Below, in pieces: positions 3,121 to 50,338 of a DNA stretch of 64,000 bases; positions within the stretch are counted from its first letter, which is position 1; each line of letters begins with the position of its first letter. Position numbers and translations under genes: made by a program. Location: positions 124,001 through 188,000 of the forward strand of contig NZ_FNQZ01000002.1 of NCBI RefSeq assembly GCF_900107545.1, read 5' to 3'. Origin of the DNA: Pseudobutyrivibrio sp. ACV-2 (GTDB lineage: Bacteria > Bacillota > Clostridia > Lachnospirales > Lachnospiraceae). The notes beneath the pieces are model-generated. The model was not told the DNA's origin. It made no database searches and saw only the letters and a list, made by a program, of their open reading frames with translations.

Positions 3121-4258
3121 TTAATCATCTGCCATGGCGCCTCTGTCAGGGCAACCAAGTGACAACCATTTTAAATAGGCATTCATAAATGGAGTAAGCT
3201 TTCCATCAAGAACTGCATCTGCATTTCCTGATTCCTCTCCTGTACGCAAGTCCTTTACCATGGTGTATGGCTGAAGGACATAGGAACGAATTTGATTGCC
3301 CCATCCGATTTCAGAAACCTCGCCACGTATTCCACTGGCCTTTGCAGCGTTTTCTTCCTGTTTCAAAAGCAAAAGCTTTGTTTTCAACATCTGCATCGCT
3401 TTGTCCTTGTTTTGGAATTGGCTTCGCTCATTTTGACAAGTTACTACGATACCTGTGGGGAAATGTGTAATACGAATGGCCGAGCTTGTTTTATTGATGT
3501 GCTGACCTCCGGCTCCTGATGATCGGTACGTATCAATACGGATATCCTCATCACGGATTTCAACATCCACATCTTCCTCTATATCTGGCATAATATCACA
3601 GCTGGCAAATGAAGTCTGTCGCTTTCCCTGCGCGTTGAATGGGGAAATACGAACCAGGCGGTGGATACCTTTTTCTGATTTCAAATAACCGTAGGCATTC
3701 TCGCCATTTACCTGGAATGTAACTGACTTTATTCCAGCTTCGTCACCTTCCTGATAGTCAAGCTCATCCACAGCAAATCCCATGTCAGATGCCCATCTTC
3801 CATACATACGATAAAGCATCTGTACCCAATCGCAGGCCTCTACACCACCTGCTCCGGAATGTAGTGTAACTATGGCATTATCGGCATCATATTCTCCTGA
3901 AAGTAAAGTCTTCATGCGAAGACTTTCCAAATCATTTTCAAATTCTTCTATGAGAAGAGCCACTGTATCAACAATTTCCTGGTCCTCTTCCTCATTGCCA
4001 AGCTCGATGTAATCTTCTATTTCTTTGTATAAATCATCCAGCTTATCTATGACAGCTACGTCGTCCTTCATAGATTTCAGTTCTTTCATTTTGGCTGTAG
4101 ATGTAGTAGCATCCGTCCAAAAATCAGGAGCTTCCATTTCACGCTCTAACTCTTCTATGCGAGCCTTTTTAGCTGCGACGTCAAAGTGAATCCCTCACTT
4201 CCGTCATAGAATTTTTTTGCGAACTAAGTCGCTGTTTGAACTGGTCTAGTTCTATCAC
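3121..4258 (-). CDS. prfB: Peptide chain release factor 2, expressed through a programmed +1 frameshift
   Basis: RF2 ends translation at UGA and UAA. The reading frame is split: a 25-codon ORF starts at GTG 4258 behind a GAGGTGAT ribosome site and stops at TGA (4183-4181). Slipping +1 on CTT at 4186-4184 continues through GAC into the long frame, giving 378 aa. The joined product has the RF2 tripeptide SPF (in RISPFNAQGKR) and the hydrolysis motif GGQ (in SGAGGQHINK). An AGG internal Shine-Dalgarno lies upstream of the slip site as in other prfB genes. An annotation starting at ATG 4137 would miss 40 residues. A structured repeat lies directly upstream (4280-4420). Confidence 0.97.
4180..4198 (-). 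promoter_or_regulatory. prfB programmed frameshift site
   Basis: On the minus strand the sequence reads AGG GAT TCA CTT TGA C. CTT-T is the slippery site, TGA the in-frame stop that RF2 itself recognises, and AGG the stimulatory anti-SD pairing element at the same spacing as in E. coli. Low RF2 raises pausing at UGA and so the shift, which is the known autoregulation of this family. Confidence 0.95.
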
Positions 4259-4279
4259 GAAATCACCTCTTTTCAAATA

Positions 4280-4420
4280 GTGCAATTATGTTCTAATCTA
4301 GGTTGTTGGCTCGCCTGTTACGGTATCAATACTGACACTTGCTACACTTCGCTTAGAACGCTCCGTTTAAGCAAGCGCCTGCATTGATACCTACAGGCTA
4401 TTTAAACTTTGTGTAATTGT
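4280..4420 (-). repeat. Structured element, copy A (upstream of prfB)
   Basis: A ~100-nt core (4310-4409) starts with CTCGCCTGTTACG and ends with CTACAGGCTATTT on the plus strand; GCCTGT and ACAGGC pair. Inside are 20-nt arms (4323-4342 and 4371-4390) that pair imperfectly at both ends (GTATCAAT with ATTGATAC, CTTGC with GCAAG), around a 28-nt loop containing CTTAGAA. CAATTA (4283-4288) and TAATTG (4414-4419) give a possible outer stem. The same ends and loop, with different arms, recur at 11857-11954. It lies just before the prfB ribosome site, so it may be in the prfB leader. Function unknown. Confidence 0.75.
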
Positions 4421-4451
4421 TCCGCCGAATACGGTCTTTTACAGCGTAAAA

Positions 4452-5741
4452 TTACTTTCCTAAAACTTCCAACGCTTTTTGGATTTGGTTGTCCAGGTCT
4501 ACGCTGTAAGTGGCGTCTTCACCGCCTAGGAACTGATATTCAAGCTCTACGTCAGGTTTAATTCCTGTGCCGTGGATGCATTCACCGCTTGGTGTGTAAT
4601 AGGTTTGAGTTGTAAGCTTCATTGCTGAGCCATCTGAAAGTGGAATAGTAGATTGTACGATACCCTTTCCAAATGTCTGAGTGCCTATTATTGTACCATA
4701 TTTGAAATCTCTAACAGCTCCTGTGAAAATTTCCGCAGCTGATGCAGTGTTTCCATTTACAAGAACAACTGATGGAATAGACTTGCTGTGGGCGGCATCA
4801 GATGTAAAATCCTCTCTATGCCCAGCTTTATCCATCGTGTACACAACAGTTCCTTCTGGAAGAATATAGTCAAGCATCTCCACTACTGAATCCACAAGAC
4901 CGCCACCATTATTTCTCATATCAAACACCACTGATGTCATGCCCTGGCCTTCAAGGTCCTCATAGGCAGCCTTGAAATCGTCAAAGGTGTGATCTGTAAA
5001 TTGAGAAACTTCTATGTAGCCTACATTACCTGCCAACATTTGATATTCAACAGTTGGTGTAGCAATGGATGCTCTTTTGCATTTTATGTTTAATTCTTTA
5101 CCATCTCTGGCAATAACAAGAGTTACCTCTGTTCCCTCTTCACCACGGATACGCTGTACAAAGGCATCCAGTTTTTCCTCGGTTGAAAGATGTCCATCTG
5201 CAGATACTATAATATCATTAGCCATTAATCCAGCTGTCTCCGCAGGTGTGCCTTTGTATACCTTTGTGATAGACACAAGACCTGTTTCCATATTCTTCTG
5301 AAGAAGGGCACCGATTCCACTGTAGTTTCCTGTGAGAGATGCCATCAAATCTTTAAACTCTTCTGCTGTGTAATATTCTGAATATGGATCATTAAGACCT
5401 TCCACTACACCTTTATAGATTCCATTAACCAGATTTTCAGCATCTACATCCTGGTAATAGTAGTTTTCAATTACAGAAAGAATAGTCCCCAATTTTGATT
5501 CTGAAGCATTACCTTCCTGAATTGAATTAAGCACATCTGACGCCTGTTCATTGGCTTTCACTGGCATTCCAGCACTTAAACCAAACACAAGTACAAGTGC
5601 AGAAATAACACCACCAAGTACTATCCCTGAAATACCTGCTAAAACCACCGGCCATTTTTTCATCTTAGGTGCTTTATTTGTCCCTGTTTCATTTACAGTT
5701 TCATAGTAATATGTGTATTCTGGTTCTTTGTTTTCATTCAT
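4452..5741 (-). CDS. S41 family C-terminal processing peptidase (CtpA-like)
   Basis: 429 aa, membrane-anchored extracellular serine protease with a Ser-Lys dyad. A cytoplasmic N-terminus is followed by one membrane helix near residues 30-55, a PDZ domain at about 125-205 (YSGIGALL ... ETAGLMANDIIVSADG), and the S41 catalytic domain. The catalytic serine is in GNTASAAEIF and the lysine in TFGKGIVQS. It follows ftsE and ftsX on the same strand, with a terminator-like hairpin between ftsX and its ribosome site. CtpA-type proteases trim exported or wall proteins, so linkage with FtsEX suggests a role in cell-wall turnover; that is inference. Confidence 0.93.
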   Translation of the reverse strand: MNENKEPEYTYYYETVNETGTNKAPKMKKWPVVLAGISGIVLGGVISALVLVFGLSAGMPVKANEQASDVLNSIQEGNASESKLGTILSVIENYYYQDVDAENLVNGIYKGVVEGLNDPYSEYYTAEEFKDLMASLTGNYSGIGALLQKNMETGLVSITKVYKGTPAETAGLMANDIIVSADGHLSTEEKLDAFVQRIRGEEGTEVTLVIARDGKELNIKCKRASIATPTVEYQMLAGNVGYIEVSQFTDHTFDDFKAAYEDLEGQGMTSVVFDMRNNGGGLVDSVVEMLDYILPEGTVVYTMDKAGHREDFTSDAAHSKSIPSVVLVNGNTASAAEIFTGAVRDFKYGTIIGTQTFGKGIVQSTIPLSDGSAMKLTTQTYYTPSGECIHGTGIKPDVELEYQFLGGEDATYSVDLDNQIQKALEVLGK

Positions 5742-11381: not shown

Positions 11382-11756
11382 TTATTTAGTGGCGATAGCC
11401 TCTGCCTCTAATAATACATCCTTAGGGATTCTGGCAACTTCGATGCACGAACGTGCTGGAAATGGCTCTGGAAAATATTTTGCATATACTTCATTAATAG
11501 CGGCAAAATCTTCCATGTTCTTGATGAACACTGTTGTCTTAACAACATTAGCCATAGATGTGCCTGCAGCCTCTAAAAGAGCTGTCATACTCTTGAAAAC
11601 TCTGTCAGCCTGTGCTGCAGCGCCTTCAGGAATAACTCCTGTAGCAGGATCAACTGGAATAATTCCAGATGTGTACACCATACCGTTTACTTCGATGGCC
11701 TGTGAATATGGGCCGATTGCAGCTGGCGCATTTTCAGTAGAAATTACGTTCTTCAT
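11382..11756 (-). CDS. ridA: RidA family reactive-intermediate deaminase
   Basis: 124 aa. RidA hydrolyses reactive enamine/imine intermediates made by PLP enzymes and so protects metabolism. The family pattern is present: APAAIGPYSQAI near the N-terminus, the substrate-binding arginine in PARSCIEVARIP near residue 104, and the EAEAIA end. A GGAGGA ribosome site precedes the ATG. A structured repeat (copy B) occupies the upstream gap. Confidence 0.94.
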   Translation of the reverse strand: MKNVISTENAPAAIGPYSQAIEVNGMVYTSGIIPVDPATGVIPEGAAAQADRVFKSMTALLEAAGTSMANVVKTTVFIKNMEDFAAINEVYAKYFPEPFPARSCIEVARIPKDVLLEAEAIATK

Positions 11757-11809: not shown

Positions 11810-11970
11810 GCCAAGGTTCTGGCCTGCTTATTGCACCGGTAAGCCTTAGTTTTTCTCTCGCCTGTTACGCTCACAAACTATATATCTCTACACTCGGCTT
11901 AGAATGCCTCGCTTAAGAGATATATAGTTTGTTAGCTACAGGCTATTTGGACTTGGTTTATACAAGCCTA
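11810..11970 (-). repeat. Structured element, copy B (upstream of ridA)
   Basis: The core (11857-11954) starts CTCGCCTGTTACG and ends CTACAGGCTATTT as in copy A. The 20-nt arms (11870-11889 and 11916-11935) pair at 19 of 20 positions, but have no sequence similarity to the arms of copy A. The 26-nt loop again contains CTTAGAA, here flanked by GGC and GCC. CTTGTAT..CCAAG on the left and CTTGG..ATACAAG on the right can extend the fold. It fills most of the ridA-cvfB gap and is in the sense direction of the same strand as copy A. Function unknown. Confidence 0.8.
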
Positions 11971-12010: not shown

Positions 12011-12835
12011 TTACGCACGACGAATTTTGCCGTCGGTTAATGTAATTTTACGCTCTTTGTAGAGACGGCCTATAGCGCGCTTGAAGGCTGCTTTCGAAAG
12101 GCCTGTCTCACGCTTGATTACTTCTGGTGATGCTTTTTCTGTAAATGGCAGTACGCCTGCGTAGCTATCTATCAAATCAAGAAGGGCTTCTGCATCATCC
12201 TCCATCTGAACATATGCCTTGTCACGGATGGTAACGTCGCATTTACCATCTTCCTTGATGCCTGTGACACGAACCATAATTACGTCACCGATGCGGTATT
12301 TTGAAACATCTTCATGTCTAGGAATCATTGCTGAATATTTATCCTCAAGGGCTACGAATGTACCGAAATCATGACCAAATTCATAGATACGAGCCTCTAT
12401 CTCATCACCCACCTGATAAGGTGGCTTTTTAGATAATAAATCATATATGCCCTTCATGCTGGCACAAAGGCGCTCACTTTTATCGATATAGACTCTGACG
12501 ATTATTTCGTCACCCTCTGATGGCTGGCGTGTCATTTCCTTAAAAGGAAGGAATAAATCCTTTTCAAGACCCCAATCCATAAAGGCGCCCACTTTATTTA
12601 CCTGGCTTACTGTAAGGACACCGTATTGGCCCAAAGTAAGCTTTGGTGTGGTAGTGGTGGCTATGAGCCTGTCCTTTGAATCCTTGTATACAAAAACCGA
12701 TACCTCATCACCAATTTTGGTATTTTCTGGCACCTGCTTTTTTGGAAGAAGGACCTTATCTGCACCATCTGTAAGATAAACTCCAAATTCCACCTTTTTT
12801 TCTATTTTGAGATTCTGTATTTCTCCTAATTTCAT
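12011..12835 (-). CDS. cvfB: S1-domain RNA-binding protein of the CvfB/YitL family
   Basis: 274 aa. CvfB proteins have several S1-like OB folds and a C-terminal winged helix, and affect expression of virulence or stress genes post-transcriptionally in other Firmicutes. Here the S1 folds cover about residues 1-210 (for example GVLTVSQVNKVGAFMDWGL) and the winged helix the last ~60 (SPEVIKRETGLSKAAFKRAI). It overlaps the upstream thioesterase gene by one base, so the pair is coupled. Confidence 0.9.
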   Translation of the reverse strand: MKLGEIQNLKIEKKVEFGVYLTDGADKVLLPKKQVPENTKIGDEVSVFVYKDSKDRLIATTTTPKLTLGQYGVLTVSQVNKVGAFMDWGLEKDLFLPFKEMTRQPSEGDEIIVRVYIDKSERLCASMKGIYDLLSKKPPYQVGDEIEARIYEFGHDFGTFVALEDKYSAMIPRHEDVSKYRIGDVIMVRVTGIKEDGKCDVTIRDKAYVQMEDDAEALLDLIDSYAGVLPFTEKASPEVIKRETGLSKAAFKRAIGRLYKERKITLTDGKIRRA

Positions 12836-50081: not shown

Positions 50082-50338
50082 AAAAAAAGTCTCCTCCTTT
50101 TTCGTTTTTCTGATTTCTGAGAAAAATCGAACAAGTGGCGACTGTACACTTACCCGTGTGTATCATAGATTTAAACTCAAAGTTTGAACCTAAGTTCTCA
50201 CACGTCGTCTCCGCGAATGCGGACGGTTTTCTGTTGTACAGTGACTTGTCGTCAGTTTCCTAACTTGACATTCGCTCCACGGAAAACCAACTCGTAATTG
50301 AGTTGCAACCTCACGCTTCATAGCTATCATGTCACAGC
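50082..50338 (-). ncRNA. Long structured leader of the S10 operon
   Basis: From the predicted start near 50338 to the rpsJ ATG the leader is ~257 nt. Pairings: an outer stem joining 50128-50148 to 50235-50251 (ACAAGT..ACTGTACA with TGTACAGT..ACTTGT, GGCG bulge); inside it CGTGTG/CACACG (50155-50160, 50199-50204) enclosing AAACT/AGTTT (50173-50185); and TCCGC-GAAT-GCGGA (50210-50223). CAACTC/GAGTTG (50288-50305) is separate. No T-run follows the folds. Probably an r-protein-controlled leader; its class was not recognised. Confidence 0.65.

Follow-up and report, generated by a model that had tools for sequence, protein, structure and literature searches.

Two intergenic hairpins in a 64,000-nt stretch of Pseudobutyrivibrio sp. 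ACV-2 (the whole stretch of DNA that we analysed, hereafter the window) belong to a dispersed family that, we have hardly any doubt, is under selection at the level of RNA. Across the family, stems keep a near-constant length with a largely free sequence, and loop modules are conserved. With some reserve, we favour the reading that the family is a genus-specific, non-coding repeat that spreads and works as an RNA hairpin inside mRNAs.

Results

Two hairpins in the window have the same loops and different stems

Copy A (4310..4401, minus strand; covariance model score 86.1 bits, E 3.3e-21) lies in the spacer between an upstream gene for an S41 C-terminal protease (ctpA-like; 4452..5741, minus strand) and the downstream peptide chain release factor gene prfB (main reading frame 3121..4137, minus strand). 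Copy B (11857..11946, minus strand; 105.1 bits, E 1.9e-26) lies between an upstream gene for a CvfB-like S1-domain protein (12011..12835, minus strand) and a downstream gene for a RidA-family protein (Ribonuc_L-PSP; 11382..11756, minus strand). Scanning the window with the covariance model yielded, above noise, only these two copies and an antisense echo of copy B. The sequence bears out the shared ends and CTTAGAA loop that a first-pass annotation of this DNA had described, with CTCGCCTGTTACG at 4310 and at 11857, CTACAGGCTATTT at the opposite end of each copy, and CTTAGAA in both loops.

Read on the minus strand, the two copies have a common plan, in which AUA is followed by a 6-bp outer stem GCCUGU/ACAGGC (in copy A, 5' arm GCCTGT at 4393..4398 and partner 3' arm ACAGGC at 4313..4318, both minus strand), an internal loop that opposes A to GUA (GUAG ... 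CGUAAC), and an apex in which UUAA, two pairs, GA and three pairs lead to a 7-nt loop (AUUCUAA in copy B) and a matching 3' side, with GAG as the 3' closure. The variable inner stem of copy A has a 22-nt 5' arm (4370..4391, minus strand) that starts at the last G of GTAG and a 22-nt 3' arm (4322..4343, minus strand) that is followed by GTAAC, and these enclose a type I apex (4344..4369, minus strand) with a G/A-rich internal loop and the 7-nt loop GTTCTAA. In copy B, 21-nt arms at 11916..11936 and 11869..11889 enclose a type I apex at 11890..11915 with the 7-nt loop ATTCTAA (all minus strand). The arms thus pair within each copy and differ between copies, as the first-pass annotation had stated; its further statement that they are unrelated needs a correction, since the arms are not entirely free: all 41 aligned copies from the genome that carries the window (the home genome) have the same CAA/UUG triplet within the stem.

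On the minus strand, both copies are far more stable than shuffled sequences (minimum free energy z −6.65 for copy A and −8.26 for copy B, no shuffle among 200 reaching this stability). The plus strand of copy A is barely above shuffles (z −1.35, 20 of 200 as stable), and that of copy B folds well too (z −7.41 versus −8.26 on the minus strand). The strand of the RNA is the minus strand, the same as that of the flanking genes; the case for this is made by the whole family.

Downstream of copy A, the prfB start region (4190-4262, minus strand), read by eye, has CTTTGAC after a Shine-Dalgarno-like AGGG, which resembles the usual programmed frameshift site of release factor 2.

The family is dispersed through one genus

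A pattern of the two ends matched the home genome seven times and its reversed control not at all. A covariance model built from six of these seven copies matched 60 copies in the 3.66 Mb home genome (weakest E 8.8e-4), and at least three further copies with a second apex type (type II) were missed by the model. Exact 3' halves number 49 in the home genome, 41 of them within the 60 matches. The eight outside comprise three missed type II copies (C24:183105, C31:35820 and C38:292842), a copy whose apex holds another hairpin family (C27:60464), and four 3' halves that are repeated next to a known copy.

Among the 28 other Pseudobutyrivibrio genomes, 26 have matches, with 6 to at least 71 per genome; these counts are lower bounds, as the best 71 candidates of each genome were scored and weak distant relatives may escape. 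The same model, again with the best 71 candidates per genome, found the element in none of 32 genomes of other genera. In a family-wide draw of 348 genomes (best 12 candidates per genome), some of them common to the genus and other-genera search, the sole matching genomes were the two from Pseudobutyrivibrio, with no match in the 346 from outside the genus. A fixed-stem pattern run on a named genome collection returned 21 stretches, 19 labelled Pseudobutyrivibrio and two from one genome labelled Butyrivibrio fibrisolvens 16/4. A covariance-model search had been proposed in the first-pass annotation, which offered a dispersed non-coding RNA family as one reading of the two copies; with 60 matches in the home genome and more in its relatives, that reading has gained far more than two members.

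The two genus genomes that gave no match, G007 and G021 (86% and 83% complete), also have the prfB proteins least similar to the rest of the genus (89% and 86% identity), and may therefore branch deeply. Because these two genomes, both less than 90% complete, gave no match, the element is perhaps not needed by the genus.

Rfam returned only tRNA and an S10-Clostridia leader for the whole window, with nothing for copies A or B, and a relaxed scan of 4100-4600, which covered copy A and not copy B, returned only mir-511 and MAT2A_C far below cut-off. Six further loci gave no family match for the element either. Two other hits of these scans are known RNAs, namely the S10-Clostridia ribosomal protein leader at 50246-50329 of the window (minus strand, 92.3 bits) and a TwoAYGGAY RNA in one relative (locus L219, 5356-5514, 65.3 bits). 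There was no viral-contig match to two element patterns, no phage match to copy A and no plasmid match to copy B, leaving a phage or plasmid origin without support in the queries tried. We found no open-licence PMC paper that names the family or pairs Pseudobutyrivibrio with REP or stem-loop terms, and the available part of PMC8632094 contains no mention of Butyrivibrio or Lachnospiraceae.

The hairpin is modular

Each element is assembled from a base loop, stem 1, the GUAG/CGUAAC internal loop, stem 2 and an apex, and these modules combine freely. By rough patterns, the base is AUAGC...GCGAG in 20 of the 60 home copies, UGAGC...GCGGA in 29 and of other ends in 11, and there are at least three apex types (likewise assigned by rough patterns), including GAGGAGUAUAGCGAAAGCGAUCUC with a GAAA tetraloop. 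An exact GTAG marks the foot of the long inner hairpin in 52 of the 60 home copies. Measured from GTAG to CGTAA, 34 of 42 type I home copies span 68 or 70 nt, and type I copies of relatives are looser (65 to 80 nt). Conserved sequence extends about 10 nt into each flank. In our own reading, the loops resemble sheared G-A and bulged-G motifs.

Paired changes and wobble bias point to selection on sense RNA

In alignments fitted to the covariance model and compared with shuffles that ignore relatedness, 41 home copies had 96.1% of cells paired (71.8% in shuffles), changes on both sides in 26 of 32 pairs, and a covariation score of 0.649 versus 0.188, which none of 500 shuffles reached; for 71 distinct copies taken from other genomes, the same treatment gave 95.6% of cells paired, two-sided changes in 29 of 32 pairs, and a score of 0.623 versus 0.173. 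All six pairs of the outer stem changed on both sides. Pairing fell to 31-44% when the alignments were slid out of register, and RNAalifold on an unfitted MAFFT alignment of seven copies recovered this fold, in which 22 of 33 pairs were compensated. By pair counts against shuffles, compensatory changes on one strand therefore lie far beyond chance in these larger alignments, upholding the original suggestion that structure rather than sequence has been kept. Of the findings that the first-pass annotation had listed as refuting its reading, none arose in what was searched: copies are numerous, covariation is strong, and Rfam and the phage, plasmid and viral-contig queries returned no match to the element.

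Two further measures distinguish the strands. The sense strand folds better than the antisense strand in 57 of 60 home copies, and fold z is below −3 in all 60. Counted with equal scores, stem mismatches in the home genome were 65 G-T versus 6 A-C (55 of 60 copies, the other five having loops unmatched by the parser; binomial p=1e-13, relatedness ignored), and those in other genomes were 39 versus 0 (53 of 71 copies, 18 being omitted for the same reason; p=4e-12, relatedness ignored). One badly registered home copy (L026) contributes 6 G-T and 2 A-C, and without it the home counts are 59 versus 4. The great excess of G-T over A-C indicates that the minus-strand (sense) RNA is what selection sees.

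Elements turn over and recur at different loci

The element is very probably mobile or copied between loci: we observed both the same sequence at different loci and presence and absence at one locus. Gene conversion between existing copies could account for part of this pattern. Read by eye in 29 genomes, the ctpA-prfB spacer holds a full element in 14, a mini-hairpin in one, remnants in two (one doubtful) and none in 11, with one unassessable, and at least five of the 14 full elements are nested or have repeated halves. The CvfB-ridA spacer, read in the same way, holds a full element in three genomes, a mini form in four and none in 21 (two with possible remnants), with one unassessable. Half-unit counts in the prfB arrays, also by eye, are 4:2, 3:3 and 2:1 (5':3') in different genomes; because these numbers vary from genome to genome, duplication or loss of single halves also occurs, and we reject the idea that nesting is always insertion into a loop.

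Comparison of the two closest genomes, G026 and G019 (prfB DNA 97.5% identical), gives a measure of this turnover. Of 13 G026 elements in five syntenic blocks, seven are common with G019 at 0.97-1.00 identity, one is common at 0.86, four are absent or replaced and one lies beyond the colinear block. Among those four, one was script-paired with its neighbour's orthologue (0.92) and one stands opposite an inverted element (0.72); one further G019 element is a mere remnant in G026. The 0.86 pair has near-identical flanks, and three of its stem pairs and its apex hairpin are changed on both sides. Stems are not always in flux, as the seven elements kept at 0.97-1.00 attest.

One case of copying joins two loci whose flanking genes we take, from their sequence, to be MFS-like and PfkB-like. 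The same element, with two differences, precedes the MFS-like gene in G026 and the PfkB-like gene in G019. At the MFS locus, the G024 copy is identical to the G026 copy amid neighbouring DNA that is 83% identical, a different stem is found in the close relative G019, and deletion forms occur in G006 and G008. G026 itself carries, at the PfkB locus, an element whose outer ends and GUAG/CGUAAC loop are the same but whose interior is a short new stem bearing another hairpin family. The home genome contains two copies, 10 kb from each other, that are 97.9% identical and have unrelated flanks. The compared spacers yielded no clean empty site, and the flanks of near-identical pairs, read by eye, no consistent target duplication.

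Two other dispersed repeats were seen beside the element. A second hairpin family (GGCAAGCGCGAGCA ... TGCGGGAGCACGG), with stems that by eye are variable and paired, occurs in intergenic DNA and inside the apexes of GUAG elements (L189 ~1370-1480, L264 ~1350-1500, L222, L224, L270, L024 2574 and others). An exact 14-mer of this family is present in 13 of 281 loci; it had no Rfam match in the loci scanned and is absent from the window at up to two mismatches. A third family (CCTTCCCC...GGGGAAGG...GATGAGGG) is intergenic in relatives (L210 8259, and L265 on the minus strand, less than about 130 nt upstream of the PfkB-like start) and once stands where the element would be.

Candidate movers are patchy

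Y1 transposases are the usual movers of single-stranded DNA hairpins. We found a Y1 transposase (PF01797) in 10 of 29 genus genomes, several of the matches partial and many of the genomes drafts, versus elements in 27 of 29, and reverse transcriptases in 15 of 29, not including several element-rich genomes. No element was found around four Y1 genes of other genomes or around two reverse-transcriptase genes, nor at the two home Y1 loci. Absence of reverse transcriptase is weak evidence, because many genomes are drafts, and at 15 of 29 genomes we reject it as a universal partner. Both kinds of enzyme are too patchy to be obvious movers, and a RAYT or other Y1 mover is unsupported at the loci examined. 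Among home copies with the exact 3' motif, none was an autonomous copy with a gene between its halves. The first-pass annotation had also raised a mobile element folded as single-stranded DNA; copying between loci and turnover agree with its mobile part, and the strand asymmetry, which points to RNA, and the presence of Y1 transposases in only 10 genomes speak against its DNA-folded part.

The same evidence bears on whether the element is a REP-like, GTAG-tagged palindrome moved as single-stranded DNA by a RAYT, which we consider quite improbable. The GTAG at the foot of the long hairpin is suggestive, as are the dispersed, intergenic and genus-specific distribution and, in the part of PMC3733652 on which we draw, published GTAG REP subfamilies that have alternative complementary stem residues and G-T pairs. 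However, the element measures about 90 nt and its stem about 21 bp or more, the GTAG-to-CGTAA span being mostly 66-76 nt, whereas REPs are 20-40 bp with stems mostly of 6-9 bp, and its GTAG is enclosed by a covarying outer stem rather than terminal. The patchiness of Y1 genes also counts against a RAYT, if weakly, since that part of PMC3733652 notes that RAYTs may be missing from REP-bearing genomes.

Stems change by single wobble steps and by double changes

Across 22 comparisons of copies at least 85% identical, which overlap and are not independent, 59 pairs differed, with 17 single wobble changes, 11 double changes passable via G-U, 19 double changes not passable via G-U, and 12 changes to or from an unpaired state. 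In the ten comparisons at 0.95 identity or above, seven of ten changes were single wobble changes, two were double and one was pair-breaking, and the two double changes are probably one event. The single wobble steps are as expected under selection on RNA. For the double changes between more distant copies, one has to assume either a one-step process (template switching, for instance, or exchange between copies) or enough time.

There is little chance, in our estimate, that the element is a palindrome of DNA without an RNA role, its symmetry kept only by template switching in replication. Two nested home copies that we read have an outer hairpin that lacks an internal loop and forms a perfect palindrome (22 bp in one, 14 bp in the other), and 30 of the 59 (non-independent) changed pairs are double, 19 of them unable to pass via G-U. 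According to the portion of PMC8794818 available to us, template switching can indeed create and keep perfect stems. However, a DNA palindrome predicts equal numbers of G-T and A-C mismatches, in contrast to the observed 65:6 and 39:0, and does not explain the conserved unpaired loops, the near-constant stem length or the sense orientation. Under RNA-level selection, stems may change with their pairing kept through wobble-tolerant single steps, template switching at the palindrome, and exchange of interiors between copies that share ends.

Elements lie mostly in sense between unrelated genes

Placement was scored on gene calls from a codon-usage caller trained on the window. None of the 60 home copies overlaps a called gene; 54 lie between co-directional genes (48 in sense, six antisense, of which two share one spacer), four between convergent genes and two between divergent genes. 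The sense copies sit mostly between the stop of one gene and the start of the next, at median distances of 70 nt from the former and 53.5 nt from the latter. The six antisense home copies and the four between convergent genes mean that a role upstream of a gene cannot hold for every copy.

This sense orientation, the site upstream of starts and the modular conserved loops would suit a cis-regulatory leader or riboswitch-like switch for one signal, which we nonetheless hold to be highly improbable. The downstream genes have no common pathway among those tested: of 47 listed downstream proteins, ten, picked by eye among the shorter ones, were searched against Pfam, and nine had a match, with unrelated functions (SmpB, ATP synthase c, cyclophilin, FabA-like, NrdR, aconitase C-terminal, TatD, SpoU and AsnC-type regulator). 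Apexes and base loops combine freely, against a switch for one signal, and the prfB and ridA spacers lack the element in many relatives. The narrower proposal of the first-pass annotation, a regulatory RNA in the prfB leader, is not supported, because the element is full or nested in 14 of 29 ctpA-prfB spacers and absent or reduced in 14, and home copies precede unrelated genes; we reject a prfB-specific leader on this distribution within the genus. Intrinsic terminators or attenuators, for which one G026 element (L214, 3295-3420) with an extended outer stem and a T-run offers a terminator-like example, are scarcely credible and were rejected, as TTTT follows within 12 nt in only two of 60 home copies. 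The G019 counterpart of that G026 element (L224) is a terminator-like hairpin that carries the second hairpin family.

Discussion

A proposed portable RNA hairpin inside mRNAs

The element probably acts in cis in mRNA. As we picture it, the hairpin would be transcribed as part of its operon, and a host protein would bind it, recognising the loops and the length of the stem (about 21 bp, two helical turns) rather than the sequence of the stem. The likeliest binder would be an RNase III-like double-strand RNase or some other double-stranded RNA-binding factor, and each copy could then serve as a portable intercistronic processing or stabilising site, as Correia elements of Neisseria can. From what is accessible of PMC2649163, transcribed Correia/NEMIS repeats are part of the mRNA and are bound, and sometimes cut, by RNase III. 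This analogy and the two-turn stem length are the reasons for naming RNase III, and processing by that type of enzyme specifically is a tentative suggestion.

A bolder reading, to which we give a minor share of our belief, is that of a mobile element that inherits its shape and not its sequence: the end and loop modules would be what is recognised, the stem would be a free cassette whose two arms are rewritten or swapped together, copying would pass via RNA or an RNA-like strand, and only the transcribed sense fold would be selected. If this were true, portable mRNA-processing sites would form a layer, itself turning over, that extends through the whole genus. Should the copies be processing sites, their gain and loss would rewire operon expression across a gut and rumen genus. 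Dozens of copies per genome in many genomes offer an unusually clean view of selection on RNA structure that is nearly free of sequence and, because the same loops occur with different stems in so many copies, the route of paired change (wobble, template switching or exchange) can be tested.

Comparison with known repeats

Correia elements preserve their inverted-repeat sequence and often insert at TA, and BOX and RUP are modular or MITE-like intergenic repeats of a Firmicute that, to our knowledge, have not been described with wholesale replacement of paired stems. In contrast to the fixed inverted repeats of Correia elements, the stems of the present element are largely free, with six of six outer-stem pairs varying on both sides, and its loops are kept. 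It is like Correia/NEMIS, as presented in the portion of PMC2649163 available to us, in being a dispersed, non-coding, gene-adjacent hairpin repeat with evidence of mobility, and some Correia/NEMIS loci vary between strains in presence and sequence (PMC2649163). BOX and RUP of Streptococcus pneumoniae are named in a table of PMC2267715, the part of that paper used here. With RNA hairpins maintained by template switching the element has in common that both arms can be rewritten at once, although what the accessible text of PMC8794818 describes is a mechanism in RNA genes and not an element family.

GTAG REPs come closest, both in their tag and in having variable complementary stems. As far as the available part of PMC3733652 describes them, the two are alike in the GTAG at the foot of the hairpin, the complementary stem variants, the G-T pairs and the intergenic site, and they differ in size, in the enclosed GTAG, in the CGUAAC partner strand, in the long stem and in the lack of a consistent Y1 transposase. 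We judge the family to be a new form of transcribed palindromic repeat, outside both REP and Correia elements as these have been described.
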